Shown here one piece after another: positions 16,323 through 34,928 of a stretch of DNA of 34,928 nucleotides. The DNA is from Capnocytophaga sp. (GTDB taxonomy: Bacteria > Bacteroidota > Bacteroidia > Flavobacteriales > Flavobacteriaceae): positions 20,893 to 55,820 of the forward strand of contig JAUMUT010000014.1 of NCBI GenBank assembly GCA_030530525.1, given 5' to 3'. Position 1 is the first letter of the stretch. Every line of letters begins with the position of its first letter. Under the pieces are notes generated by a model, which had not been told where the DNA came from, did not search any database, and was given only the letters and a program-made list of their open reading frames with translations. The translations under genes were made by a program, and so were the position numbers.

Positions 16323-16328
16323 CTTATA

Positions 16329-16355
16329 AAAGCTATCGTTTTGATAGCTTTTTTT
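16329..16355 (+). terminator. Terminator after the acyl-CoA dehydrogenase
   Basis: AAAGCTATC (16329-16337) pairs perfectly with GATAGCTTT (16343-16351) around a 5-nt loop, followed by Ts. It starts 7 nt after the stop codon and marks the left border of the accessory import locus. Confidence 0.85.
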
Positions 16356-16657
16356 ATTCAAAAATACTTCTTTTTAAAAAAAATATTTTTTTGTTAATAA
16401 AATCATTCTATATAATATTTTTTTACATTCTATTTTTCTTTCCAAAAACAAAAATATTTTTCCTACCAAAATTAAAAAAATATTTTTTCTTCTCTCAAAT
16501 ACAAATACATAGCTTACAATTCTTTTTGAAATTATTTTAAATAAAATTAAATTTTTAGTATATTTGCACCGATTTTTACTCTTTTAATTTAGTTAAAAAT
16601 ATTATTATTTTATTAGATAAATCCTTGTTTTTTTAATAAAATTTAAGCAAATTTTAA
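16356..16657 (+). promoter_or_regulatory. Regulatory gap before the import locus
   Basis: No gene is visible in this very AT-rich gap. It holds four AATATTTTT-like motifs (about 16382, 16414, 16453, 16479). A -7 match TATATTTG is at 16559-16566, but there is no TTTG at the normal distance: the nearest, 16525-16528, is 30 nt away. A 13-bp palindrome TTATTT-T-AAATAA (16532-16544) lies where the -33 region should be. A promoter with a degenerate -33 and a neighbouring operator would suit an inducible operon. The leader would be about 85 nt. Confidence 0.5.
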
Positions 16658-17833
16658 ATGAAAAAAATATTTCTTTTTATATTTTCTATTTTATTTATTT
16701 CGTGTGAAAAAAACACTAACGAAACCATTACTTCGTCATATATCCCACCTCTGTCGCTTCCTGTGGTTCTAAAATATGAATTTTCACGCAATGGATATAG
16801 TAGCGTAGATGTGCTGGAATGTAGCTTAGTGAAAGAGCCTTTGGACAGGTTGTATTCTATTCGTTTAGTGGGGGCGCAAATAACCAACGAAAGAGAGTAT
16901 AACGATGCTTTTAATCTATTCAATAACGGGCTTTATGGAGTAAAACCAAAAGACGAAATAGCCTCGTCGCCTTTACATCTTCCTAATAAAGAGAAAATAA
17001 CGCAAGATATTGAAAATCTTATAAATACAACTGCCACTATTTCAGGATATTATTCCGATAGTTCCGTAAAAAGACGTGCCGCACGCGCAGGACAAACAGG
17101 TTTTGTAGGAATAAATATCAGTGACCCAAACAGAGCGTATGTAAATGAAAAAGGCTTGGCTGTTGCCGATGTTTTCCAATATTCTATAATGGGTGCTATT
17201 TATTTGGATAAAATTCTTAATTATCATTTAGACGAATATTTCTTTGATAATCAAGAACTTATAGAAAAACATCAAAATGTTACACTTCCTGCGGGGCGAA
17301 ATTATACCGAGCTGGAACATCACTGGGATTTGGCTTATGGATATTATGATTTTTGGAAAAATTTAGCCCAACCCGAAGGCATTCCGTTACTGAAAGAAAG
17401 TGAAAAAAAGATTTTTAACGCTTTTGTACAAGGCAGATTGGAGCTTGGAAGATATCGTTATGAAGATATGAAAACGCAAATTCGTATCATTAGGGAAGAA
17501 TTATCCAAAGTGGCAGTAGCACGAGCAATGAATTTTCTACTTAGTGAAAATACGCTTGCCAATTTGGAAGAAGGCTCAGGAAGTGATGCTTTTGCTACCA
17601 TTTCCAAAGGTTATGGGCTTATTTATGCATTACAATTTGCAAGAAAAGCCAATGGCGAAACTTATTTTTCTTATAATGAAATAAAAAATATTTTAGCTAA
17701 AATGCAACAAGGACAAGGTTTTTGGGATAAAAATAAACTTCTTGCCGACGAAAATACCGATGGTTCTCTAAAAAATATAGCAAAAACCATTGCACAACCC
17801 TTTCAAATTTCAATAAACGACATAAAACGATAA
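16658..17833 (+). CDS. DUF4856 lipoprotein
   Basis: A 391-residue lipoprotein with a signal peptide ending at Cys16 (LFISC) followed by EKNTNE, a short charged stretch of the type that directs Bacteroidota lipoproteins to the surface. The mature part matches DUF4856: YEFSRNGYSSVDV after the linker, YVNEKGLAVADVFQYSIMGA in the middle, the ELEHHWDLAYGYYDF motif, and a helical C-terminal half. The family is of unknown function but is repeatedly found with TonB-dependent receptors and SusD-like proteins. It is the first gene of the locus; the next begins 5 nt after its stop. Confidence 0.85.
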   Translation: MKKIFLFIFSILFISCEKNTNETITSSYIPPLSLPVVLKYEFSRNGYSSVDVLECSLVKEPLDRLYSIRLVGAQITNEREYNDAFNLFNNGLYGVKPKDEIASSPLHLPNKEKITQDIENLINTTATISGYYSDSSVKRRAARAGQTGFVGINISDPNRAYVNEKGLAVADVFQYSIMGAIYLDKILNYHLDEYFFDNQELIEKHQNVTLPAGRNYTELEHHWDLAYGYYDFWKNLAQPEGIPLLKESEKKIFNAFVQGRLELGRYRYEDMKTQIRIIREELSKVAVARAMNFLLSENTLANLEEGSGSDAFATISKGYGLIYALQFARKANGETYFSYNEIKNILAKMQQGQGFWDKNKLLADENTDGSLKNIAKTIAQPFQISINDIKR

Positions 17834-17838
17834 TTATA

Positions 17839-18882
17839 ATGAACAAAAATATACTTTTTCTTATCTTTTTTTATCCTTTTTTACTAAAAGCACAAACTAA
17901 TTTGATAGAAAATGGAGATTTTGAGAAATATCAGAACCGCCGTTTTACGAATTGGTATTTTGATGGTACGCTAAGTTTGGACAAAAGCTCAGACGCTCAT
18001 CAAGGGAATAATGCTGCACAAATATATGCCAACGGAGGCTCTTTTCGTATTACCAAAAACGCAGAATATAACGTTATTGATGTAGAAGAGGGAGCGGAAT
18101 ATACGTTTTCTTATTGGGTGAAAGCTGGGAATAGCTCGGCAAATGTACAGCCTATTTTCACTTGGTATAAAGGAAATTCCCGAATAAGAGACGAACGCTT
18201 GAATACCATAAATTCTACTTTACAATGGAGAGAACACACACAAAGCATCACTATTCCAGCAGATGCGGATAAAGTAGGAATAGCTTTTTATATTCCTTCT
18301 CAAAGTGGGCAAATTGTTCTTTTTGACGACATTTCTTTTGTTTTTAAACGAGGCGCAACTACCGAACTTGCCCCACCAACAGGAATAACTTATAAAAATT
18401 ACCAAAGGGAAATTGAACTTTCTTGGAACAAATCTATACAAAAAGGAATACAATGGGAAATTGTTGTAAATAACCAAAATCCTATAAAAACTTCGGAAAA
18501 TTCTTATATTTTAGAAAATTTAGAACCTAATACCAATTATTCTATAAAAATAAGAGCTACCAAAGGCGGAAATTATTCGGATTATTCTTCCGTCATTAGG
18601 CTAAATACCCAACGATTATCTACCAATGTAGAAGACGAAAACCGAATTCCGTATTTGCGTACATTAAATAGCGAGGCCGAAGCAGATTCTACTATTTTAT
18701 TGTATTACAATGATTTAGCAGAAAAAAACGCAGAAATTACTTATTTTATTGACAATGTAAAAACACTTCCTGTTGGCAATACGCTTACTTTCCCGAAAAA
18801 GGGAAATCAAATTCTTAAAATTATCATAAAAGAAACCGATGACCGAGAATGGGAATTAGAATATAAAATGACTATTAAATAA
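17839..18882 (+). CDS. Secreted carbohydrate-binding-like/FN3 protein
   Basis: A 347-residue exported protein. The signal peptide ends at about LKA-Q (residues 17-19) with no lipobox Cys, so unlike its neighbours it is probably periplasmic or secreted. Residues about 20-170 form a jelly-roll carbohydrate-binding-like domain: LIENGDFEKY start, YTFSYWVKAGNSS, and the closing IVLFDDISFVF. Residues about 185-272 are a fibronectin type III domain (ISWNKS-like beginning and LEPNTNYSIKIRATKGG). The last 75 residues are an unrecognised beta-rich segment. No catalytic domain is present, so it probably binds a ligand or a partner in the complex. Confidence 0.75.
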   Translation: MNKNILFLIFFYPFLLKAQTNLIENGDFEKYQNRRFTNWYFDGTLSLDKSSDAHQGNNAAQIYANGGSFRITKNAEYNVIDVEEGAEYTFSYWVKAGNSSANVQPIFTWYKGNSRIRDERLNTINSTLQWREHTQSITIPADADKVGIAFYIPSQSGQIVLFDDISFVFKRGATTELAPPTGITYKNYQREIELSWNKSIQKGIQWEIVVNNQNPIKTSENSYILENLEPNTNYSIKIRATKGGNYSDYSSVIRLNTQRLSTNVEDENRIPYLRTLNSEAEADSTILLYYNDLAEKNAEITYFIDNVKTLPVGNTLTFPKKGNQILKIIIKETDDREWELEYKMTIK

Positions 18883-18888
18883 CAGATT

Positions 18889-19815
18889 ATGAACAAATTA
18901 ATTACACTTATTTTCCTTTCATTTTTTATTTTTGCTTGTAACAAAGAAAAAAATGAAACCACATATCCTGATATAAAAATAGGCAGAGAAAACCATTCTA
19001 TTTCTGAAATTTCTATAAATAAACTCACCGAAAGAGCTATTTTACTCTCTGGAGGAAACGAAAAATTTAGTGTTAGTATTGAAAATTCTAAATTTGCACA
19101 AGCAAGCATTAATAAAGATACATTGAAAATCAAAGCCTTATGGGAAGGTGAAACATTTGCCACCATACACTCTCACGACAAAAAGGCACAATTGAAAATC
19201 AAAGTAGTACCTTCTGAACTTAGCATTAGCCAAGATTTTGTTAGGCTATACCCAAAAGACGAAACCAAAACTATTAGTGTTAGCGGAGGAGGCGATATTG
19301 TAGATATGCATTTGGACGATCCTGAGCAGGCTGTTGTTGCCAAATGGAACGGCTCTAACGGAATTTTAGAGCTAAGAGCCATTCACGATGGAGATGCAAC
19401 CATTACTTTTTCTTCGGGGAATGTAACTTCTAAAACATTGAAAATCAGCGTAAGAAGTGAAGGTGTTAGTAATGAAATCGGGATTTATTCTACTACCAAC
19501 CGAAGCATTTATTCTGTCTTAACACCAAAAATGATTGTAAAACGTAAAGGAAAAGGAATTTGGCTTTCTACCACTACCAATCCGTACGGAACATATTTCA
19601 GTTTGTACCGAAAAGTAGCAGCAAAAATCGTTTTGGCAGAAAAAAATATTCAAAAAGACACTTATACGGACGTAAATTTATCTTTTTACCCCAGCACCAC
19701 CGAACTTTCAGGGATAAAAGAAGGCAAATACCAAGTTTTTGTTGAAGAAATAGGAACTTCTACTATTACTTTGCGCGGAAAAGGCTTCCGTTTGGTTCTT
19801 CCGAAGGAAAATTAA
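18889..19815 (+). CDS. Ig-like domain lipoprotein
   Basis: A 308-residue lipoprotein with a signal peptide ending at Cys17 (FIFAC) followed by NKEKNE. Two bacterial Ig-like (Big_2-type) domains occupy about residues 38-107 and 109-189, each with the pattern of a strand, a GG/SGG turn, an A-x-A-x-I strand and a closing I-x-V strand. The C-terminal 110 residues (about 195-308) form a beta-rich domain I do not recognise, ending in RGKGFRLVLPKEN. The protein lacks the LRR repeats of its two larger relatives in the locus. It starts 6 nt after the previous stop. Confidence 0.7.
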   Translation: MNKLITLIFLSFFIFACNKEKNETTYPDIKIGRENHSISEISINKLTERAILLSGGNEKFSVSIENSKFAQASINKDTLKIKALWEGETFATIHSHDKKAQLKIKVVPSELSISQDFVRLYPKDETKTISVSGGGDIVDMHLDDPEQAVVAKWNGSNGILELRAIHDGDATITFSSGNVTSKTLKISVRSEGVSNEIGIYSTTNRSIYSVLTPKMIVKRKGKGIWLSTTTNPYGTYFSLYRKVAAKIVLAEKNIQKDTYTDVNLSFYPSTTELSGIKEGKYQVFVEEIGTSTITLRGKGFRLVLPKEN

Positions 19816-19850
19816 CCTGAAAATAATCATTTATAATTAAAAAATTAGTT

Positions 19851-20675
19851 ATGAACCCAATGAAAAAACAATTAGACAAAATACCTGAAACAATGCTTAT
19901 CACTCTGTGGGCAAAAGCCGAAGAAACCAAACAAAAAGTGCCTTTGCTAAGAGATGAAACTGCTTTGGGTATTTTGAGCCAAATTGATTACGATTTTTCA
20001 AAGTTTAAAAAATCTAAATTCACACAAGCAGGAGTGTGTATTCGTGCAAATTTAATAGATAAGGAAGCAAAAACATTTATTGAAAACCACCCCGATGCTG
20101 TGGTGATACAATTGGGTACGGGCTTAGATGCTCGTTATGAGCGCTTAGGGTCTCCTTGTGTTACGCATTGGTATGATTTGGATTTGCCAGAAAGTATCGC
20201 CTTACGGAAACAATTTTTCCGAGAAAGCCCTTCTCGTACTTTTTTACCTATTTCTATGTTTGATTATAGTTGGATAGATAAAGTTTTGGCTCACCAAAAG
20301 CCTGTTCTCATCATTGTGGAAGGTGTTTTTATGTATTTTGAAAGAGAAATGATACAAAATTTCTTTAATGAAATATGCAAACAATTTGATAAAACTACCG
20401 TTCTCTTTGATATGTTAGCATTTGTTTTGGTAGGAAATGCAAAAAAACACGATTCTTTAGGAGCAATGTCAGAAGAACAACGCCCTGAATTTAAATGGAG
20501 TGAAAAATATGCCAAAGATATGGAGCAATGGAATCCAAAAATTCATATAGAAAAGGAACTTTTTATGAGTGATTATGACCAAAAACGATTTCCTTTTTTG
20601 TTCCGAATGTTTTATAAAATTCCTTATTTTTATAGAACATTCAACCAACGAATTATCCAAATAGGGATAAATTAA
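19851..20675 (+). CDS. TcmP/LCM-type SAM methyltransferase
   Basis: A 274-residue class I SAM-dependent methyltransferase of the leucine carboxyl methyltransferase/TcmP family (COG3315). Motif I is VIQLGTGLDARYERLG (residues 85-100). The acidic loop is WYDLDLPESIALRK (107-120), and EGVFMYFE (157-164) is the family's post-III motif. There is no signal peptide or membrane helix, so it is cytosolic, the only such product in an otherwise exported eleven-gene locus. Relatives O-methylate small acids or polyketides. Here the substrate is unknown; the context suggests a metallophore or the imported ligand (inference). Start ATG 19851 or 19860 cannot be told apart. Confidence 0.82.
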   Translation: MNPMKKQLDKIPETMLITLWAKAEETKQKVPLLRDETALGILSQIDYDFSKFKKSKFTQAGVCIRANLIDKEAKTFIENHPDAVVIQLGTGLDARYERLGSPCVTHWYDLDLPESIALRKQFFRESPSRTFLPISMFDYSWIDKVLAHQKPVLIIVEGVFMYFEREMIQNFFNEICKQFDKTTVLFDMLAFVLVGNAKKHDSLGAMSEEQRPEFKWSEKYAKDMEQWNPKIHIEKELFMSDYDQKRFPFLFRMFYKIPYFYRTFNQRIIQIGIN

Positions 20676-20705
20676 TTTTTTGTAACAAATTTAAATTAAA
20701 TAATA

Positions 20706-22454
20706 ATGTCAAAATTACGTTTATTTTGTGGGCTTATGACAGCCTTCATTCTTTCTACGGTGAGTTGTAATAAAAGTGAAGACTCGCCTGTACAGGAAGT
20801 GCCTGCCACGAAAGAATTAAAATTGGAAAGTACGGAAACACAACTTTCTATTAAAGGCACAACAACTATCAAAATCACGGACGGAAACGGCGAATATACC
20901 GCCAAATCTTCTGATGAAACCATCGCAAAAGCATCTATAAAAGACAATGCGGTTACTATTGAAGCAGTAAAAGACGGCTCGGCTACTGTTACCATTTCTG
21001 ATGCTAAAAACCAAACTGCAACTATCGCTGTTAGTGTTTGGAAATCTATCGCTTTGGATAAAAAAGAAGTTCAAGTAATAAAAGGAGCTACTGCCGAAGT
21101 TAATATTCTATCAGGGGAAGGAACTTATTCTGTATCTTCCAATAATGATGCTACTGCAACTGCTTCTGTTTCAGGTAATACCATTACTATCACCGCCGTA
21201 GAAAGTGGTGAGGCTACCATTACCGTAACCGATAGCAAATCTTCCCAAACGGAAACAATTAAAGTTGTAGTGGAACTTGGTTTCCATTTGGAAAAAGAAG
21301 CTATTACGCTAAAAGTTGGAGAAACACAAACTATTGCTGCTAAAAATGGTTCTGAACAATATCTTGTAAAAGCAGATAGCGAAACTATCGCTTTGGCAGA
21401 GTGGCAAGCTGGCGTTAAAGTTACTGGCGCAACTGTTGGTACTACCAATGTAATTGTTACGGACAACAAAACCAAAGAAACACTTACGCTAAAAGTAACC
21501 GTAGAGGCTTCTGACCTTACTTTATCTACCAATGCTATTGAGGTGGATAAAAACGGAGGCGGTACTTTCCAAATTAATAAAGGAAGTGGAAAATATACTA
21601 TCACATCAAGCAATGCTGCCGTAGCAACTGCCGAAATAAGAAAAGACCCAACTAATTATTATTATTCTGTGATAATTACCGACCATAAAGTAGGTACAAC
21701 CACTCTTACCATCACAGATACAGAAACCAACAAAACCGCTACGGTTAGTGTAACTGTTAAAGGCACTATTTTGGCTCTTGGCAAAGATAATGTAACCTTA
21801 GAAATAGGAAATACAGAAACTATTAACATTTTCGGAAATGAGGATTATACTGCATCTTCCAGTGCTGAAAGTATCGCAACAGCAATTATTGAGAATAAAC
21901 GAGTGAAAATTACCGCTGTTGCTGCGGGCTCGGCTACTATTACCATTACAGATAACGGAAGCTCACCAGCACAAACCAAAACTATTTCGGTAACCGTAAA
22001 TGCTCCTGTAACTAATGATAATAATTTTGTTGTAGATGAAAACGGCGTTCTTACCAAAGTGAAAAATATTACCGCCGAATTAGTTATTCCTTCCAATGTA
22101 AAAAAAATCAGTAGTAATCTTTTTTCTGGAAATAAAATAATTGAAAAAATAACTATGGAATCTGTGGAAGAAATTGAAGACTTTGCTTTTGCTAATTCTA
22201 ATGTTAAAGAAGTAATTCTTGGAGATAAAATAAAAATATTAGGAACAGGTGCTTTCCGTATTTGTAGAGAATTAGAAAGTGTTACTATAAAAACTGCAAC
22301 TCCTCCTACCCTTAATGGGGGGGCAGGTGTGTTCAGAAGCTCAAAAGCAACAAGAAAACTTATCGTTCCTAAAGGAGCTGCTGAAACTTATAAAGCAGAT
22401 AATAATTGGAAAAGTTCTTTCAGTCAAGGGAAAAATATTGAAGAAGCAAAATAA
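20706..22454 (+). CDS. Five-Ig-repeat plus LRR_5 lipoprotein
   Basis: A 582-residue surface-type lipoprotein with Cys21 (STVSC) followed by NKSED. Five tandem Big_2-like domains of about 78 residues fill roughly 36-435; each ends in a strand such as IAVSV, IKVVVE, LKVTVE, VSVTVK or ISVTVN. The C-terminal 145 residues carry BspA-type LRR_5 repeats (IPSNVKKISSNLFSG and following) and end in a TPPTL...VPKGAAETYK cap. The same cap appears in the gene at 28609, so the two are paralogues. Such proteins are long rods that present a binding tip. It is the last gene before the terminator at 22492. Confidence 0.85.
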   Translation: MSKLRLFCGLMTAFILSTVSCNKSEDSPVQEVPATKELKLESTETQLSIKGTTTIKITDGNGEYTAKSSDETIAKASIKDNAVTIEAVKDGSATVTISDAKNQTATIAVSVWKSIALDKKEVQVIKGATAEVNILSGEGTYSVSSNNDATATASVSGNTITITAVESGEATITVTDSKSSQTETIKVVVELGFHLEKEAITLKVGETQTIAAKNGSEQYLVKADSETIALAEWQAGVKVTGATVGTTNVIVTDNKTKETLTLKVTVEASDLTLSTNAIEVDKNGGGTFQINKGSGKYTITSSNAAVATAEIRKDPTNYYYSVIITDHKVGTTTLTITDTETNKTATVSVTVKGTILALGKDNVTLEIGNTETINIFGNEDYTASSSAESIATAIIENKRVKITAVAAGSATITITDNGSSPAQTKTISVTVNAPVTNDNNFVVDENGVLTKVKNITAELVIPSNVKKISSNLFSGNKIIEKITMESVEEIEDFAFANSNVKEVILGDKIKILGTGAFRICRELESVTIKTATPPTLNGGAGVFRSSKATRKLIVPKGAAETYKADNNWKSSFSQGKNIEEAK

Positions 22455-22491
22455 TTTTTCTTAATTACATATTTTTAACAAAAACTAACCC

Positions 22492-22529
22492 AAAGAGTGC
22501 AAGTGTATATTTGCATTTGCACTCTTTTT
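22492..22529 (+). terminator. Terminator splitting the import locus
   Basis: AAAGAGTGCAA (22492-22502) pairs perfectly with TTGCACTCTTT (22517-22527), an 11-bp stem followed by a T run. The loop contains TATATTTG (22506-22513), a match to the -7 consensus, without a recognisable -33. It lies 38 nt after the first block and 156 nt before the TonB receptor gene. Confidence 0.8.
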
Positions 22530-22602
22530 AATATAAAAGACTAAAAAACAAAATGTTACTAACTCTCTAACCTATCAAAATCTTTATATTTATAAAAAAT
22601 TA

Positions 22603-22628
22603 ATAACCAAAAAAATAATATTGGTTAT
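22603..22628. promoter_or_regulatory. Perfect inverted repeat upstream of the TonB receptor
   Basis: ATAACCAA (22603-22610) and TTGGTTAT (22621-22628) form a perfect 8-bp inverted repeat with a 10-nt spacer, 57 nt before the receptor's ATG. CTTTTT follows directly, so it could be a second weak terminator, but its position between a terminator and the first gene of a block also fits an operator. No consensus -7 is clear in this gap. Confidence 0.45.
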
Positions 22629-22684
22629 CTTTTTCCCTTCGTAACATTACAAAATAGTCTTAAACTTTTTAACTGATTTTTTTT

Positions 22685-24943
22685 ATGTCGCTGACCAAAG
22701 TATTCATAGGATTTTGTTTTTTTCTCCCTCTTTCTATCTTTGCACAAGAAGAAAAAGAAGAGAAAAAGAAAGATAGTATTCGGCAACTAAACGAAGTGGT
22801 GGTATCCGTAAAACAAATATTAGGAAGCAAGTTTCAGGCTCGTAACCGAACAGGCTCGGCGTATTACATCTCTCCGCAAGAAATAGCCAAGCTCGGTTAT
22901 ACCGATATTAACCGAATGCTCAAAGCCGTTCCTGGTGTAAATGTCTATGAAGAAGATGGTTACGGACTACGACCCAACATCAGTCTTCGCGGTACAAAAG
23001 CCGAACGAAGTGAAAAACTTACCATTATGGAAGATGGTATCCTTGCCTCGCCTGCACCTTATGCTGCGCCTGCGGCTTATTATTTCCCTAATGCAGCTCG
23101 TATGTATGCTGTGGAAGTACTAAAAGGAAGTAGCCAAGTGCAATATGGCCCTTTTACCACAGGTGGTGCCATTAATATGGTTTCTACGCCTATTCCTGCC
23201 AAGTTTGGAGGAAAAATAAATGCTTCTTTTGGTACAGATAACACCCTAAAAACTCTTGCCAATATTGGCGATACCAAAAAACATTTTGGCTATATGGTGG
23301 AATATCTTCGTTATCAATCGGACGGATTTAAACATTTTGAAGACGGAAAAAAAGCAGGATTCTACCGAAATGACCTTATCGCAAAATTTCTCTTAAAAAC
23401 CGATAAAGAAGAAGGCACTAACCATTCCTTAGAATTAAAATTTGGCTATGCCGATGAAAACTCAGACGAAACATATGTCGGGCTTTCCGAATCCGATTTC
23501 TATTCCAACCCTTTTCTTCGCTATGCGGGCTCTAAAAAAGATAATATGAAAACCAAACATCAGCAATGGGTTGTTACTTATTTACTGAATGTTTCGCCTC
23601 GTTTTCAGGTTACGACCAATGCTTATTATAACCAATTTCATCGTAATTGGTACAAACTCAACGATGTAAAAGCAGGAATTACCGATGCCGAAAAACGTTC
23701 TATCGGCGATATTCTTAAAGACCCCGAAACCAATCATTTATATTTTGATATCTTAACAGGAAAAACGGATTACAACGGAGCGGGGCTTTTAGTTCGTGCC
23801 AACAACCGAAATTATGACGCTATGGGCGTACAAACCAAAATCAATTATAAAACTACTTTCGGGAGTTGGTTTTTAGATGCCGAAGCTGGGTTACGATACC
23901 ATTCGGATAGCGAAGACCGATTCCAGTGGGACGATGCGTATAGCATTCAAAATAAACAAATGTCGCTTTTCTTAGAAGGAATACACGGCGAGCAAGCCAA
24001 TCAAATCAACTCCGCCGATGCTTTTGCTTCTTATTTACTTGCCAAAATATCCTATAAAAAATGGACTATCTCTGCGGGGCTTAGGTATGAAGATATTCAT
24101 TTGCATAAAAAAGATTATACCAAAGCCGATGTTCGCCGTTCGGGCAGAGTACGACAAGAAGCAGATAATTATGTTAATGTACTGATTCCCAGTGTTGGCG
24201 TGCATTATAAAATCACTTCGGATTGGTCGGTATTCTCTGGCGCACATCGTGGATTTTCGCCTCCAAGTGTTTATTTAGATACTCGCACAGGCAAAAGTAT
24301 AGAACAAAACCCTGAAAATAGTACTAATATAGAAGTAGGTTCTCGTTTTTCCAAAGGAACGCTAACTGCCGAATTGATAGGGTTTTATAATAATTATAGC
24401 AATATGCTTGGTAGCAACTTGGCTGCTGCTGGCGGAACGGGCGATCTCAATCAGTTTGACATCGGGAAGGCTATCGTAAAAGGAGCAGAATTTCTCGTTC
24501 ATTATCAACCTCTCCCCGAAGATTGGGCGGTAAAAACTCCGTTGCAACTTTCTTATACTTACACCGATACCGAAATGCAAAATACCTTCCAAGAAGACTC
24601 TTGGGGGTACGTTCATAAAGGAGATGAAATTCCTTACATTAACAAACATTCGCTTAACCTAAGCATTGGTTTGGAGTACAAACGTTGGGAAGGAAACATT
24701 GGCATACGATACAATGGCGATATGCGCACCACACCAGGACAAGGCACTATCGCAGAGCGAGAAAAAATCCCTTCGCATATTATTATTGATGCTTCTGTCA
24801 AATTCAAAGCCTACAAAAATCTTACTTTGAATATTAATATTATCAATGTAACGAATAAAAAATACTTAGTCTCTCGGCATCCTTCTGGGCTAAGAGCTGG
24901 GCATCCTTTTGGTATTTTTGCAGGAGCGAATTATCTTTTTTAA
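22685..24943 (+). CDS. FecA-like TonB-dependent receptor
   Basis: A 752-residue outer-membrane receptor. A signal peptide is cut near Ala20, and a TonB-box-like NEVVVSV lies at 36-42. The plug begins directly after it: RPNISLRGTKAERSEKLT (about 96-113), then EDGILASPAPYAAPAAYYFP and VEVLKGSSQVQYGPFTTGGAINM. These plug motifs are those of FecA-type ferric-chelate receptors, not SusC. The N-terminal carboxypeptidase-like domain typical of SusC and the FecA signalling domain are both absent. The C-terminal barrel ends in GANYLF with a terminal Phe, as outer-membrane barrels do. The SusD-like gene starts 50 nt downstream, so the receptor and lipoprotein lid are co-expressed. Confidence 0.92.
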   Translation: MSLTKVFIGFCFFLPLSIFAQEEKEEKKKDSIRQLNEVVVSVKQILGSKFQARNRTGSAYYISPQEIAKLGYTDINRMLKAVPGVNVYEEDGYGLRPNISLRGTKAERSEKLTIMEDGILASPAPYAAPAAYYFPNAARMYAVEVLKGSSQVQYGPFTTGGAINMVSTPIPAKFGGKINASFGTDNTLKTLANIGDTKKHFGYMVEYLRYQSDGFKHFEDGKKAGFYRNDLIAKFLLKTDKEEGTNHSLELKFGYADENSDETYVGLSESDFYSNPFLRYAGSKKDNMKTKHQQWVVTYLLNVSPRFQVTTNAYYNQFHRNWYKLNDVKAGITDAEKRSIGDILKDPETNHLYFDILTGKTDYNGAGLLVRANNRNYDAMGVQTKINYKTTFGSWFLDAEAGLRYHSDSEDRFQWDDAYSIQNKQMSLFLEGIHGEQANQINSADAFASYLLAKISYKKWTISAGLRYEDIHLHKKDYTKADVRRSGRVRQEADNYVNVLIPSVGVHYKITSDWSVFSGAHRGFSPPSVYLDTRTGKSIEQNPENSTNIEVGSRFSKGTLTAELIGFYNNYSNMLGSNLAAAGGTGDLNQFDIGKAIVKGAEFLVHYQPLPEDWAVKTPLQLSYTYTDTEMQNTFQEDSWGYVHKGDEIPYINKHSLNLSIGLEYKRWEGNIGIRYNGDMRTTPGQGTIAEREKIPSHIIIDASVKFKAYKNLTLNINIINVTNKKYLVSRHPSGLRAGHPFGIFAGANYLF

Positions 24944-24993
24944 GATATTTGATTTTTTATTAAAGAAATATTAATTTTATCAAAAATATACGA

Positions 24994-26517
24994 ATGAATA
25001 TAAAAAATATAATAATTTTCAGCTGGATAGTTTTTCTTTCTGTAAGTTGCCAAAATTATTTAGACAAAGACCCCGATTCTTCTTTAAATATTCCTATTGA
25101 TTCGGAAGAAAAAATAGCGGAACTCCTTACGGGAGCGTATCCTCAGGCGAGTTATTTCCCGTTTTTGGAAACGCGCACGGATAACGTTATGGAAAGAGAC
25201 AACGGCATTCATTCTCAGCTAAATGAAGCGATGTTTTTCTGGGAAGATTATGAGCAAGAAGATTTGGATACGCCACTTTTTTATTGGAATGCTTGTTATG
25301 CTGGTATCGCCCAAGTAAATAAAGCGTTGGAACTATTGGCTTCTTACCCAAAAACCAATAGAGTAAAAGCCTTATATGGCGAGGCTTTCCTGCTTCGGGC
25401 GTATCTTCATTTTATGTTGGTTAATATTTGGGCAGAGCCTTATGCGGGGGCGCGTTCTTCTCAAAGTATGGGCATTCCTTACCTTACCAAGCCTGAAAAA
25501 TATGCTTTGGTAGATTATGAAAGAGGCTCCGTTGCACAAGTCTATGACAAAATTGAGGAAGACCTAAAACTCGGTATTTCATTGGTAGATGATAAATATT
25601 ACCAAAAACCAAAATATCATTTTAATAAAAAAGCCGCTTATGCCTTTGCTTCTCGTTTTTATTTGATGAAAGCCGAATGGGATTTGGTTATCCAATACGC
25701 CGATTATGTTTTAGGTGCAGACCCCAAAAAAGTACTTCGCAATTGGGCAAGTTATGAGGAAGATTATACTTTTAACAGAAAAAATCTCTTCCGTTCTTAC
25801 ACCAATACCGAGCAAGAAGCCAATCTTCTGCTAACTACCACCGAATCGCGCATTGCGAGAAATATCGCTACGGAAAAATTTGGCGTTACTACCAATACTA
25901 TGGACGCTATTTTTAACAATAAAGGCATTGAAGCCTGCGATGCGGGTAGCAAATTACGATTGTCTATGTCGTACTTATTTTCCTCTTCCAATGCTCCTAT
26001 AAATAACGGAATGTACATTGCAAAGTTTGATGAACTTTCCCTTTTCGGAAATGTAAGTACCTCACCACGAGACTTATACGTTACCAATGTTCTCTTTACT
26101 ACCGATGAAGTTTTCCTTAACCGAACCGAAGCATATGCTATGAAAAAGGAATATGACCTTGCTATCAATAATATAAAAGAATTTATGACAGGAAAGTATG
26201 GGCGCACCACCGTCCCCTCTTGCGAGAATGATACTTACACTTCCATAAGTAATTCATATTATGATACGTATAGCCCTTTTTACGGACTGACAATCAAACA
26301 ATTAGCATTAATAAAAATTATTTCCGATTTTCGGCAAAAAGAATTTCTGCACGAAGGATTGCGTTGGTTGGATATTCGTCGTTTTTATATTCCTATCGCA
26401 CGAACTTCCAGAAGTGGCACGTATAATTATCGACCTTTACGAAAAGAAGACCCTCGTAAGTTATTACAAATACCAGCAGAGGCTATCCGTAGAGGATTAA
26501 CTCCTAATCCGCGTTAA
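24994..26517 (+). CDS. SusD/RagB-like surface lipoprotein
   Basis: A 507-residue lipoprotein with Cys19 (SVSC) in the family signature C-Q-N-Y-L-D-K-D-P. The body is alpha-helical and TPR-rich: FFWEDYEQEDLDTPLFYWNA, then AFLLRAYLHFMLVNIWAEPY, and a C-terminal ERRQEFLHEG-type segment (here FRQKEFLHEGLRWLDIRRF). SusD proteins sit as a lid on a TonB-dependent barrel and bind its ligand. The partner here is FecA-like rather than SusC-like, which argues against a simple glycan utilisation system. Confidence 0.9.
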   Translation: MNIKNIIIFSWIVFLSVSCQNYLDKDPDSSLNIPIDSEEKIAELLTGAYPQASYFPFLETRTDNVMERDNGIHSQLNEAMFFWEDYEQEDLDTPLFYWNACYAGIAQVNKALELLASYPKTNRVKALYGEAFLLRAYLHFMLVNIWAEPYAGARSSQSMGIPYLTKPEKYALVDYERGSVAQVYDKIEEDLKLGISLVDDKYYQKPKYHFNKKAAYAFASRFYLMKAEWDLVIQYADYVLGADPKKVLRNWASYEEDYTFNRKNLFRSYTNTEQEANLLLTTTESRIARNIATEKFGVTTNTMDAIFNNKGIEACDAGSKLRLSMSYLFSSSNAPINNGMYIAKFDELSLFGNVSTSPRDLYVTNVLFTTDEVFLNRTEAYAMKKEYDLAINNIKEFMTGKYGRTTVPSCENDTYTSISNSYYDTYSPFYGLTIKQLALIKIISDFRQKEFLHEGLRWLDIRRFYIPIARTSRSGTYNYRPLRKEDPRKLLQIPAEAIRRGLTPNPR

Positions 26518-26550
26518 ATAATTTATTTTTTCACTTATTTTGTGTTAAAT

Positions 26551-27498
26551 ATGAAAAAAAAGTATATTTTCTTGTGCCTTTGGGCTTTATTTAGTTGCTC
26601 CAAAGAGAATTTATCCAGCAATAGTGTTGTAGAAGATAATATTGTACAACGCCAACATACCGAATTGGATACATATATTTCTGAAAATTTTATAAAACCT
26701 TACGGAATTTCCGTAGAATATAGGTGGAACAACAATACCGCCCCAAAAGGGAATTACACCTACCCGCCTCAGCCTGAAAAAGTAAAACAAGTACTCCAAG
26801 CTATTCAGTATCTTTGGTTGGAAACTTATACCCTATCCAATATTGGCGGATCGGATTTTATGAAAGGTAAAAATCCTATTAAAATATATATGTACGGAGG
26901 TAAAAACTTAGATGCCAATGGGTTAGAACTTATTTCTAATCCCAACTCTGGTGCTATTGAAATGCATCTTTACAATATTAACGAATTTGACCCAAAAAGT
27001 ACAGAACAAGTTTATATCCTGATGCGTAGCGTTCATCATCAATTCGCTAAGCGTTTATTAGAACTTTTTCCTTATGATAGAGACAAATTTGTTGTCATTA
27101 GCCAAAAAAAATATCTTTCTTCCACACAAGACATTAAACAATTGAGTGGTTTAACGCGCCTTGAACTATTCGGAATTGAAAGTTATGCCAACAAAAGAGG
27201 ATTTTTTACGCAACATTCCCGACTTTCGGCAGAAGATGATTTTGCTGAAATTATCAGTGTAATGCTTACCAATTCCCAAAAAGAAGTAGAACAAGGCATT
27301 ACCACTGCCCAAACCCCAGATACCGACATTGACCCGCAAGTGCAACAACGTTATAATGAAGAAGCAAAAGAAGCATATGCCGAAATTACCCAAAAACAAA
27401 CAATGGTTTCCGATTATTTCAAAAAAGAAATAAAAATAAACCTAACCAGAATGCAAACCATTAGTGTACAACGAATTAAGGCTTACATTAACCAATAA
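26551..27498 (+). CDS. Degenerate substrate-import metallohydrolase lipoprotein
   Basis: A 315-residue lipoprotein (Cys16, LFSC, then SKEN) of the putative zinc-binding metallopeptidase family that accompanies TonB/SusD import genes in Bacteroidota. As I know the family, the active site reads HHEFAH; here the aligned residues 162-167 are H-H-Q-F-A-K, so both the catalytic Glu and the second His ligand of HExxH are replaced (Gln164, Lys167). The downstream AEDDFAEIIS segment is retained, and so is the overall length. It is probably a ligand-binding pseudoenzyme. The ATG at 26551 is preferred over the GTG at 26542 because it starts directly with the basic n-region of the signal peptide. Confidence 0.78.
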   Translation: MKKKYIFLCLWALFSCSKENLSSNSVVEDNIVQRQHTELDTYISENFIKPYGISVEYRWNNNTAPKGNYTYPPQPEKVKQVLQAIQYLWLETYTLSNIGGSDFMKGKNPIKIYMYGGKNLDANGLELISNPNSGAIEMHLYNINEFDPKSTEQVYILMRSVHHQFAKRLLELFPYDRDKFVVISQKKYLSSTQDIKQLSGLTRLELFGIESYANKRGFFTQHSRLSAEDDFAEIISVMLTNSQKEVEQGITTAQTPDTDIDPQVQQRYNEEAKEAYAEITQKQTMVSDYFKKEIKINLTRMQTISVQRIKAYINQ

Positions 27499-27504
27499 AA
27501 TGAA

Positions 27505-28566
27505 ATGAAAAATACATTATACTTTCTCTCTTTTTTATTATCTTTTTTCTACGTAAGTTGTAATAAAGATAAAAATGCTTTTGAGCAATCGCCTTCGGAG
27601 CGTACTGCCGAAAATCTTCGTACGCTTCGTTCAGAACTTACAGATGCCCCATACGGCTGGCGGGTTATGTATTTCCCAAATACAGATTCTCTTTTGTTTT
27701 CTGACAAAAATCAAATCATTGAAAAAATGGGTGATTATCGTAGCCTTTACGGCTTTGGTGGCTTTTATTTTTTAATGAAATTTGACCAAAACGGAACCGT
27801 AGAAATGCTTTCTGATAAAGACCAAACAGCTTTGGCTACATCACAAAAAAGCCAATTTGAAGTAAATCAAAGCACACTTACAGAGCTTAGTTTTACCACG
27901 TACAATTATCTGCAAGATTTGGTTAATGACCAATTCAAAGGCAAAAATGATTTTCTTTATGTTCGTAAAGATTTCAGCGGAAATTTACTTTTTAAAACCA
28001 ATTCTTCCATAGAACCAGCGCGTAATTTTATCGTTTTCCAAAAACTCACCAATGCCACACAATGGAATGGCGAAAATAATCAAAAAAATGATATTACTTT
28101 GGCTTACGAAAACAGAAAGTTTTTTGAAGAAATGCAAAATCCACAATTGGTAATAAAGAAAGGAAGCCGAATATTTTTTAAAAGCGATGTTTTTATAAAA
28201 ACCAATTCTCCTTTGGAGTCTTACCAAAAATTTCTTCAAGAAATAAAAGAAAAACGCTATTATCTTTTCCGTTTTAACAAAAAACGAAATGAAGACCCCA
28301 ATATTTACCAACCCGAAGAAAGCACAGGCTTAGGCTCTGGCTATGTAGGTACAGAAAAAGGAATTACTTTCCACGCGGGGCTTCGGTATGATAGCACTTA
28401 TATTTTCTATGATTTTCAACGAGTTGGCAACAAATTCGTCTGTGAATTGGTAAAAGTGTATGACCCTATTCGCAAGCGGTATTATTACGAAAGTAAGCAC
28501 CTTTTCCCCGATGGCGAGCCTACATTTTTCACTGCCGAAATAACCGATGAACCAAAACCTTTTTAA
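27505..28566 (+). CDS. DUF4302 lipoprotein
   Basis: A 353-residue lipoprotein with Cys19 (YVSC) followed by NKDKN. It matches DUF4302: SPSERTAENLRTLRSEL, then the hallmark APYGWRVMYFP, GFGGFYFLMKFDQNGTVEML, and a C-terminal ESTGLGSGYVG / ITFHAGLRYDSTY region. The family is uncharacterised but typically encoded beside the metallohydrolase family and SusD genes, as here (6 nt after the previous stop). A role as an accessory surface binding subunit is inferred from context. Confidence 0.85.
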   Translation: MKNTLYFLSFLLSFFYVSCNKDKNAFEQSPSERTAENLRTLRSELTDAPYGWRVMYFPNTDSLLFSDKNQIIEKMGDYRSLYGFGGFYFLMKFDQNGTVEMLSDKDQTALATSQKSQFEVNQSTLTELSFTTYNYLQDLVNDQFKGKNDFLYVRKDFSGNLLFKTNSSIEPARNFIVFQKLTNATQWNGENNQKNDITLAYENRKFFEEMQNPQLVIKKGSRIFFKSDVFIKTNSPLESYQKFLQEIKEKRYYLFRFNKKRNEDPNIYQPEESTGLGSGYVGTEKGITFHAGLRYDSTYIFYDFQRVGNKFVCELVKVYDPIRKRYYYESKHLFPDGEPTFFTAEITDEPKPF

Positions 28567-28608
28567 AATTATGTAACACAAAATTTGTAATTTAACAAAA
28601 ATCATTAT

Positions 28609-30027
28609 ATGTACAAAATTTTAAAATCAGCCTTTTTGCTATTAATGGCAATGGCTATCGCACAATGTAGTAAGGACGATAAAGCTCCTGAAACACCCAA
28701 ATTCAAAGATTTTTCCATAGAAAAAACAGAAATTTCTTTGGTGGAAAAACAAAAAGGAAGTATCAAAATCACTTCTGGAAACGAAGATTACCAAATCATT
28801 GCCTCCGAAGAAAGCAAAAAAATTGCTTCGGCAAGCATTACTTCGGATAAAAAAAGCATAGAAATAACTGCTATCCAAGAAGGAAAAACAGAAATTTCTA
28901 TCAAAGATAATAAAGTGCCAGACCAAGTGAAAACCATTCGCATTTCTGTTAGTGCCAAACCGAAAGATTTTTCCGTAGAAAAAACAGAAATAGTTGTAAA
29001 AATCAACGAAACAACTTCGGTTACTATACTTTCTGGAAATGATGAATACGAAATACAAAATTCTGAAATAGCGAAAGTTAGCCTTTCTGCGGATAAAAAA
29101 TCTTTCCAAATAGAAGGCGTAAAAATAGGTAAAGCCGAAGTAATTATTACAGATAAAAAAACGAATCATTCCGTAACGCTTTCCATTTCTGTTAATCAAT
29201 TTGTAGAAGATGTAGATTATACGCTAAGTTCGGACAAACTTACTTTGTTAAAGTGGAAAAATACTTCTGTTAAACAAATTAACTTAAAAACCGATTCCGT
29301 GCTTAGCAAAATCACAAAAATAGGCGAAAATGCTTTCAAAGAATCACAAATAGAAGCTATTATATTCCCTGAAACACTAAAAACTATCGGGAAAGATGCG
29401 TTTATTACTTCCATTCATTTAAAAACAATAAAATTTAACGAAGAATTAACAGAAATTAGCGAAAGTGCTTTCGGGTCTTGCCACAATTTAACCCAAATTT
29501 CTATTCCAAACTCGGTTACTTCTATCGGGAAATCTGCTTTTGCTAACAATGAAAATTTAGCCAGCATCACCCTTCCAGAAGGTTTAAAAACTATTGAAGA
29601 TGCTACATTCAACTTATGTGGTTTTACTTCCATCACGCTCCCTAAAACGATAACAGCTATCGGGAATGAAGCTTTTAATTCTTGCAAAAAATTAACAAAA
29701 ATTACCATTCCTGAAAATGTAAAAAGTATTGGAGAAAACGCCTTCGGAGATTGTGAAAAACTAACAGAAGTGACCGTAAAAGCGCAAACGCCTCCCGCTC
29801 TTAGCGAAGAAAATATTGGTGATGAGGATGACCAAGACGAAGAAAATGCTTCCAATTATAACGAGGAGGAAGAAGAAAACGAAGACGACGGAGATGATAA
29901 TAGCCAAGAAGGCGGTGTTTTCCCTTCCAATTTAAAAACAATTTATGTACCCAAAGGGAAAGCCGATATTTACAAAAATGCTTCGGGTTGGAGCAATTAC
30001 AAATCAAAAATACAAGAAGAAAAATAA
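28609..30027 (+). CDS. Ig-like/LRR_5 lipoprotein with acidic insert
   Basis: A 472-residue lipoprotein with Cys20 (AIAQC) followed by SKDDK, a strong surface-export-type signal. Two Big_2-like domains (about 33-115 and 117-196) are followed by about six BspA-type LRR_5 repeats (about 210-390, consensus IxIPxxVxxIGxxAFxxC). Between the last repeat and the C-terminal cap (VPKGKADIYKNASGW) is an acidic insert at about 400-434, in which 20 of 35 residues are Asp or Glu. The paralogue at 20706 has only a few residues there. The insert might bind cations or a basic host protein (inference). Confidence 0.87.
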   Translation: MYKILKSAFLLLMAMAIAQCSKDDKAPETPKFKDFSIEKTEISLVEKQKGSIKITSGNEDYQIIASEESKKIASASITSDKKSIEITAIQEGKTEISIKDNKVPDQVKTIRISVSAKPKDFSVEKTEIVVKINETTSVTILSGNDEYEIQNSEIAKVSLSADKKSFQIEGVKIGKAEVIITDKKTNHSVTLSISVNQFVEDVDYTLSSDKLTLLKWKNTSVKQINLKTDSVLSKITKIGENAFKESQIEAIIFPETLKTIGKDAFITSIHLKTIKFNEELTEISESAFGSCHNLTQISIPNSVTSIGKSAFANNENLASITLPEGLKTIEDATFNLCGFTSITLPKTITAIGNEAFNSCKKLTKITIPENVKSIGENAFGDCEKLTEVTVKAQTPPALSEENIGDEDDQDEENASNYNEEEEENEDDGDDNSQEGGVFPSNLKTIYVPKGKADIYKNASGWSNYKSKIQEEK

Positions 30028-30050
30028 TTTTTATATTTTAAGGTAAAATT

Positions 30051-30638
30051 ATGAAATATATTTATTACATATTGGGTAGCTGTTTGGCTTTGTCTGGCTG
30101 TAACAAAATTACCTCAGACCCCATAGAAGAAGACTATAAAAGCCTTTTCCCGTTCAAAGGAATTGAAAAACCAGAGTCCAGCTACGAGGATATGAACACG
30201 CAAATATGCAACCCCAGCGAGTCCTTAGAAAACTATCGCTACAAAGGAGTAGAAATTGCCGACAAACGAAAATATATCGTTACGATAAAATGTTTATACG
30301 AAGATAAAACCAACTACAAATCCACCTATTACGTCCGTTTTATTGACGAAAACAAACAACTTATCAGTATCGGAAGCCGAGAAATTAAAGATTCTTATTC
30401 CTATTATATGGAAAATGGAAAAGAATTTGTAAAATCTTTTGAAGTTTCCTCTGGCTATCCTATGTATTTGTTAGTAAATGGTGGTGGCGAGCGCGAATCG
30501 CATATAAAAGCTAGTATTTCTGCCGTTTCGGTAGATGGTTTGGTAAATGTTCCTATCCTAAGTACAGAACAATACCAAAACGAAGAAGGCCCCAACCCCT
30601 TGCCCAGCCCATTTTGTGAATATATAATTTTACCTTAA
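30051..30638 (+). CDS. Small lipoprotein of unknown function
   Basis: I do not recognise this 195-residue product. The signal peptide ends at Cys17 (ALSGC), followed by NKITSDPIEED. The mature part is beta-rich and hydrophilic, with YIVTIKCLYEDKTNYKSTYYVRF in its middle and SGYPMYLLVNGGGERE later. Two Cys near EDMNTQICNP and IVTIKC could form a disulfide, and PFCEYIILP ends the chain. It starts 23 nt after the LRR lipoprotein and is the last gene before the terminator, so it belongs to the import locus. Confidence 0.7.
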   Translation: MKYIYYILGSCLALSGCNKITSDPIEEDYKSLFPFKGIEKPESSYEDMNTQICNPSESLENYRYKGVEIADKRKYIVTIKCLYEDKTNYKSTYYVRFIDENKQLISIGSREIKDSYSYYMENGKEFVKSFEVSSGYPMYLLVNGGGERESHIKASISAVSVDGLVNVPILSTEQYQNEEGPNPLPSPFCEYIILP

Positions 30639-30652
30639 AATTTTTCTTAAAG

Positions 30653-30680
30653 AACGTTCCTTTTCAGGAGCGTTTTTTTA
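30653..30680 (+). terminator. Terminator ending the import locus
   Basis: AACGTTCC (30653-30660) pairs with GGAGCGTT (30667-30674), with one wobble pair and a 6-nt loop, followed by TTTTT. It lies 14 nt after the last lipoprotein gene. Confidence 0.8.
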
Positions 30681-34642: not shown

Positions 34643-34681
34643 TTTTTTTTATTTATTTTTATGTAAATAAAAGCATTTCTC

Positions 34682-34730
34682 ACTAAGATAATAATTATAT
34701 ACACAAAAAATTATTATCTTAGTTTTTTAT
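34682..34730. terminator. Perfect 15-bp terminator hairpin
   Basis: ACTAAGATAATAATT (34682-34696) and AATTATTATCTTAGT (34709-34723) are exact reverse complements around a 12-nt loop, followed by TTTTT. It ends the methyltransferase transcript. The long stem and an A-rich left flank could also stop transcription from the other side. Confidence 0.8.
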
Positions 34731-34773
34731 TCATTACACACTACACACAAATAAGCTATTTCACAAAATAATT

Positions 34774-34928
34774 ATTTTATTTCCGTAAAACAAAATATAT
34801 TTTTATTTGAAAAAATTTTATTTCATTGATATAAAATAAATTTTTATCTACGGAAATCTTATTTCAGTGAAATAAAACAATTTTTTTAATACGTAAATTC
34901 TATTGCATTAAAATAAATAAAACTTCTC
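34774..34928. repeat. Degenerate 41-bp tandem repeat, open at the window edge
   Basis: Units begin at 34774, 34815, 34856 and 34897, exactly 41 bp apart, each opening with ATTTTATTTC or a close variant. Units two and three agree at 32 of 41 positions; the fourth is cut by the window end. Each unit has an AT-rich core and, in the second and third, a TACGGAA/TACGTAA end. Unit three contains the palindrome TTATTTCA-G-TGAAATAA (34859-34875). A related half-unit may lie at about 34753-34773. There is no open reading frame and no unique spacer, so it is not a CRISPR array. Confidence 0.75.

Follow-up and report, generated by a model that had tools for sequence, protein, structure and literature searches.

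What does a SusD-like lid protein capture when the receptor gene beside it encodes a FecA-like barrel and the genes around it encode no enzymes of glycan breakdown? This question is posed by eleven genes in a 34,928-nucleotide stretch (the window) of a 55.8-kb Capnocytophaga sp. contig (JAUMUT010000014.1, positions 20,893 to 55,820), part of a 2.29-Mb draft genome in 76 contigs (GCA_030530525.1). An initial annotation saw in them a surface capture and import locus, related to the iron capture locus of Capnocytophaga and equipped with other and more numerous accessory proteins, that might be a distinct system. The relationship is upheld by our comparisons and the distinctness is not: the locus is probably the iron capture system (ICS) of a Capnocytophaga species in rearranged form, acting in trans with an unlinked icsC gene. 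The system is already known, and the present arrangement of it was met in no other locus that we compared.

The eleven open reading frames (ORFs), all on the + strand, fill positions 16658-30638, and Pfam and NCBIfam profiles returned the families named in the initial annotation. Its layout needs one correction, as a 230-bp gap (22455-22684) separates a first block at 16658-22454 from a second at 22685-30638; the gaps inside each block are 5-50 bp. In C. canimorsus the ICS consists of icsA, C, D, E, F, G and H, each reported as necessary for the use of serotransferrin iron (PMC5429918). Judged by sequence, the window holds orthologues of six of these seven genes (icsA, D, E, F, G and H) and another contig holds one of icsC, so that the complete set is present in the genome (F, G and H by gene order). 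The DUF4302 and DUF4856 proteins and the metallohydrolase homologue, initially counted as extras, are themselves ICS parts, namely IcsF, IcsH and IcsE. Each of the seven is full-length and free of internal stops. IcsA is 66–74% identical over its full length to proteins in nine other genomes of the genus, IcsC shares 74–81%, IcsD 63–72% and IcsE to IcsH 40–60% with other Capnocytophaga, and IcsH is 46–60% identical to its counterparts in nine other genomes of the genus. A single set of 10 genomes, out of 20 in the genus and with that of the window included, carries DUF4856, IcsG and full-length IcsA. Nine same-genus genomes have the gene order SusD, Mx1, DUF4302, small lipoprotein, DUF4856 and then the Ig-like lipoprotein Ig308, with SusC upstream of SusD, other genes interposed at some junctions and, in six of the nine, a CBM/FN3 gene between DUF4856 and Ig308.

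Akin to the systems of C. canimorsus and Riemerella anatipestifer, the genome thus has orthologues of all seven genes; it differs from them in that icsC is unlinked, that icsH, the CBM gene and Ig308 precede icsA instead of following icsG, and that a methyltransferase and two Ig/LRR_5 genes have been added. In Riemerella (PMC5429918) the icsC-H homologues and an adjacent carbohydrate-binding gene rise by 3.1–3.8 log2 units under iron depletion, and three more genes beside icsC-H, for a hypothetical protein, a FecA and a product annotated as HsdR, are up-regulated as well. The carbohydrate-binding neighbour in that cluster recalls the CBM/FN3 gene described here. In Riemerella, icsA is reported to be transcribed apart from the remaining ics genes (PMC5429918), and full seven-gene linkage is therefore not required for membership of the ICS.

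Scanning named genomes with a DUF4856 alignment yielded 46 loci, from Capnocytophaga, Bacteroides, Phocaeicola, Prevotella and its split-off genera, Alloprevotella, Porphyromonas, unclassified Bacteroidales and Algoriphagus, DUF4856 being the sole ICS match in the two Algoriphagus loci. Most of the ICS-bearing genera among these live in association with vertebrates, as would be expected if the substrate is a host iron protein. With loci cut by a contig end or by the 10-kb flank scored as misses, IcsA was found in 38 of the 46, IcsC in 43, IcsD in 43, IcsE in 42, IcsF in 42 and IcsG in 44; CBM/FN3 was found in 41, Ig308 in 42, LRR_5 in 23 and the methyltransferase in 1. The CBM/FN3 and Ig-like proteins are therefore not peculiar to the window locus, and CBM/FN3, Ig308 and LRR_5 proteins accompany the ICS in other genera too. 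The exact order A-C-D-E-F-G-H-CBM-Ig308 is seen in 31 of the 46 loci, with an LRR_5 gene behind it in 16 of those 31. The window keeps D-E-F and H-CBM-Ig308, the run A-C-D is broken and the blocks are swapped relative to this order, which is typical of the family without being an established need. Not one of the 46 named loci has IcsA adjoining IcsD without IcsC. In oral and gut Bacteroidota, ICS loci thus usually carry at least two proteins, CBM/FN3 and Ig308, beyond the seven that have been studied, and these loci link three poorly understood families (DUF4302, DUF4856 and TIGR04549) to one another.

IcsG, which has no Pfam family, is rare in the genomes sampled. Among 394 genomes of the class there was one strong match beyond the window's own genome, and a second match (E 8e-4) was not surrounded by ICS genes; among 394 genomes of the order there were three strong matches and a further one (E 4e-4) in a 1235-aa frame. 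The three order genomes with a strong match have the order C-D-E-F-G-H, followed in two by a CBM-type gene. In this material strong matches are confined to ICS loci, with two weak ones elsewhere.

Where, then, is icsC? The receptor adjoining SusD has no CarbopepD_reg domain detectable with Pfam and its best solved relative is FecA (4.6e-26), and it is therefore IcsA and not SusC; icsA adjoins icsD with 50 bp between them. Searching the genome with IcsC of the genus recovered an intact orthologue of 1117 aa (75% identity) at 7675-11028 of contig C5, flanked by a DEAD-box helicase gene and a gene for a CHU_C-domain protein; no further ICS gene was matched on this 12.5-kb contig. The CHU_C (type IX secretion) protein beside icsC (L057, 11178-12497) has HYR-like domains and is cut by the contig end. 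In IcsC and IcsD trees of 33 rows each, the window genome falls into the same five-row clade, together with C. cynodegmi, C. catalasegens and genomes G003 and G017 (support 100/99 for IcsC and 100/96 for IcsD). Since the two trees agree, the unlinked icsC looks like the old partner relocated, not a newcomer.

The relatives suggest how the locus may have come apart. Outside this clade the icsC-icsD gap is at most 321 bp in 39 of 39 measurable named loci, and at most 74 bp in 37 of them; within it the gap is 1.6–2.9 kb in four of four named loci, 0.8 kb in G003 and 2.2 kb in G017. The recognisable genes in this gap (L023, L025-L028) are cargo: a luciferase-like oxidoreductase, methyltransferases and small proteins, among them, at the C. 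catalasegens junction, an LCM methyltransferase 57.8% identical to that of the window. A gene also separates icsA from icsC in C. catalasegens, C. cynodegmi and G017. By analogy with these living relatives, the window looks like the end point of a graded series of separation, a natural experiment, within one Capnocytophaga clade, on the need for SusC/SusD gene linkage. No empty insertion site was demonstrable in eight relatives, because the Omp85 gene lies apart from the window's other flanking genes in all eight (with a 30% UvrB match in one).

The sequence of IcsE bears on how iron might be released. The window protein fits both the Peptidase_Mx1 and the TIGR04549 profiles, yet its HExxH metal and catalytic motif reads HQFAK; the solved relatives 9urd and 4l7a have HEFAH at this position. 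The Glu of the motif is missing from 48 of 48 ICS IcsE proteins (Gln in 45, His in 2, Asn in 1), a set, close relatives included, of 43 alignment rows, G003, G017 and three order-genome sequences placed by eye; the second His is lost as well in 42 of the 43 rows, L114 retaining it. By contrast, among 17 matches to the Mx1 family, two of them ICS IcsE, HExxH is kept in 14 of the 15 others, three of which are paralogues in the window's own genome, and the sole exception scores under the family cut-off. Besides a copy on contig C7, two Mx1 genes with HExxH lie on contigs C10 and C39 of this genome. The motif alignments thus indicate that the catalytic Glu has been lost across ICS loci and that IcsE, as predicted from them, is a pseudo-enzyme; because the Glu is missing in all 48 and kept in 14 of the 15 non-ICS members, iron release through IcsE proteolysis is unlikely. 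We found no earlier report of this loss in literature titles and abstract openings. IcsE is annotated as a zinc metallohydrolase although it is devoid of the catalytic Glu in every ICS locus compared, and since its proteolysis can be set aside first, transferrin iron release by a Sus-like machine becomes more testable.

In light of these comparisons, the surface lipoproteins IcsE, F, G and H, with Ig308, may bind transferrin or another iron glycoprotein of the host, and two barrels, IcsC under its IcsD lid and the FecA-type IcsA, would import the released iron or iron chelate, driven by TonB; how the two barrels share this work is our conjecture. IcsE would serve as a binding or scaffold part, the iron probably being stripped without its proteolysis, and the methyltransferase and LRR_5 proteins would be cargo or products of variable tail genes. 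Published relatives suggest transferrin-like host proteins as the iron source. Seven of eight lipoprotein-type N-termini in the window, SusD being the exception, have a lysine at +3 (the cysteine being +1); 72% of C. canimorsus surface lipoproteins are reported to have it (PMC5080379). AlphaFold modelled IcsH with a pLDDT of 90, the model having no significant match among solved structures, and IcsF with a pLDDT of 88, its first half being perhaps lipocalin-like.

Could the unusual arrangement instead mark a distinct system that has taken on a new substrate? The loss of icsC, the second LRR_5 gene and the methyltransferase would then signal a shift away from transferrin iron, the SusD lid capping a FecA-type barrel, and the close adjacency of icsA and icsD, an order with no precedent among the named loci, the placement of icsC on another contig and the long end branch of IcsD (flagged at 0.34) speak for such a shift. 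However, the icsC gene is intact, the IcsC and IcsD trees agree, the length of the IcsD branch is paralleled by a longer branch for IcsC (D/C 0.34/0.19, compared with 0.18/0.10 in G003, the sole row compared), and all seven ICS proteins are retained, which leaves this explanation unlikely. Scarcely probable, too, is a switch of the IcsD lid from IcsC to IcsA that would have created a lidded FecA transporter drawing iron from a glycoprotein held on a dead metallopeptidase scaffold. The dispersal itself, with two blocks, a relocated icsC and inserted genes, might be read as decay of an ICS that the species is losing, but seven full-length proteins without internal stops, at the identities given above, and the persistently short gaps within both blocks make decay very unlikely.

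The SusD homologue and the CBM_4_9 domain raise another possibility, a polysaccharide utilisation locus (PUL) for glycans or glycoproteins, for example the N-glycans of serum proteins, with iron incidental; transferrin is, after all, a glycoprotein. Against this, as the initial annotation had rightly observed, not one profile for a carbohydrate-active enzyme (CAZyme) such as a glycoside hydrolase, or for a sulfatase, a sugar kinase or an HTCS sensor, scored over its cut-off among the eleven genes, and a glycan-degrading enzyme was accordingly not found in the locus. The 582-aa protein came nearest, its Ig part matching the glucosaminidase N-terminal domain GcnA_N at 17.8 bits, below the cut-off of 27. 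An adjacent SusC-SusD pair is not present either, IcsC being encoded on C5, the receptor is FecA-like, and the Riemerella homologues of the locus are iron-regulated (PMC5429918). We regard a PUL as highly improbable.

Several points weigh against identification as a rearranged ICS. The letters F, G and H were assigned from gene order and from the zinc-metallohydrolase annotation of Riemerella IcsE, not from an alignment with C. canimorsus, whose founding locus is not among the 46 named loci, and the unlinking of icsC is seen in one 76-contig draft assembly. Iron regulation and growth on transferrin are reported for relatives only (PMC5429918). BT3961, a DUF4302 gene of B. thetaiotaomicron, stands at -3.2 fold in an iron table of another study (PMC10434189), and DUF4302 may thus not always be iron-induced. 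A search with a Fur consensus, scored against shuffled upstream regions, gave sites before icsH and before icsC (C5), two of three upstream regions, that were no better than shuffles; the site before icsA was equalled by 2 of 300 shuffles, none was found at the corresponding place in relatives, and we do not find it convincing. In seven of nine relatives (L075-L081; no anchor was found for L082 and L083) the icsA -7 box is closely preceded by an element of the TCTAAAT or TATAAAT type, which is repeated downstream of the box in five of the seven and is a candidate ICS operator. Such elements in the three upstream regions of the window genome were matched in at least 21 of 200 shuffles each and are therefore at chance level there.

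The features of the locus are listed below. The start of icsE as listed is a GTG, with an ATG three codons further on.

Table 1. Predicted features of the ICS locus and its borders (window positions).
Position	Strand	Feature	Evidence
16328-16352	+	Terminator-like hairpin, closing the upstream operon	Pattern match alone
16658-17833	+	IcsH orthologue, DUF4856 lipoprotein, 391 aa	PF16148 3.9e-90
17839-18882	+	CBM_4_9 and FN3 protein; signal-peptide-like N-terminus without lipobox	CBM_4_9 5.6e-12; fn3 8.2e-09
18889-19815	+	Ig308, Ig-like lipoprotein, 308 aa	Big_2 0.0018, under its cut-off
19851-20675	+	LCM-type SAM methyltransferase, probable cargo	LCM 5.5e-13
20706-22454	+	Ig-like and LRR_5 lipoprotein, 582 aa, variable tail gene	Big_2 and LRR_5 profiles
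22685-24943	+	IcsA orthologue, FecA-like TonB-dependent receptor	TonB receptor barrel 5.8e-45; FecA best solved relative
24994-26517	+	IcsD orthologue, SusD-like lid lipoprotein	PF14322 (SusD-like_3) 1.4e-54; tree
26542-27498	+	IcsE orthologue, Peptidase_Mx1/TIGR04549, HQFAK replacing HExxH	Peptidase_Mx1 8.2e-69; TIGR04549 154.6 bits (cut-off 75)
27505-28566	+	IcsF orthologue, DUF4302 lipoprotein	PF14135 4.7e-43
28609-30027	+	Ig-like and LRR_5 lipoprotein, 472 aa, between icsF and icsG	Big_2; LRR_5 3.9e-58
30051-30638	+	IcsG orthologue, small lipoprotein, 195 aa, without Pfam family	ICS-restricted strong matches
30649-30678	+	Terminator-like hairpin after the gene set	Pattern match alone

Beyond the locus, positions 34650-34928 are repeat-like and very A+T-rich, and the right end of the window is the end of the contig. 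Contig C7 of the same genome holds a paralogous SusC-SusD-Mx1-DUF4302 locus (L058, 4417-11495) with these four families arranged as in the ICS; unlike the ICS, it has no IcsA, IcsG or IcsH match in the 20 kb that surround it, and its Mx1 protein retains HExxH (HEYCH). Relatives of DUF4856 in viral contigs were also sought, and none was encoded by 28 stretches matching a pattern. In other Flavobacteriaceae, DUF4856 is encoded beside an imelysin (Peptidase_M75), an HTTM/vitamin-K-carboxylase-like protein and a TonB receptor (L034, 9615-15885, where the Pfam families were checked, and similarly in L032-L042). The DUF4856 proteins of the two settings are homologous almost end to end (hhalign 3.3e-52), whereas the window's SusD, Mx1, DUF4302 and small lipoprotein have no match in the stretches compared. 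Imelysins have been linked to iron uptake (PMC5561996), and such loci look like a second, possibly iron-related context of DUF4856.

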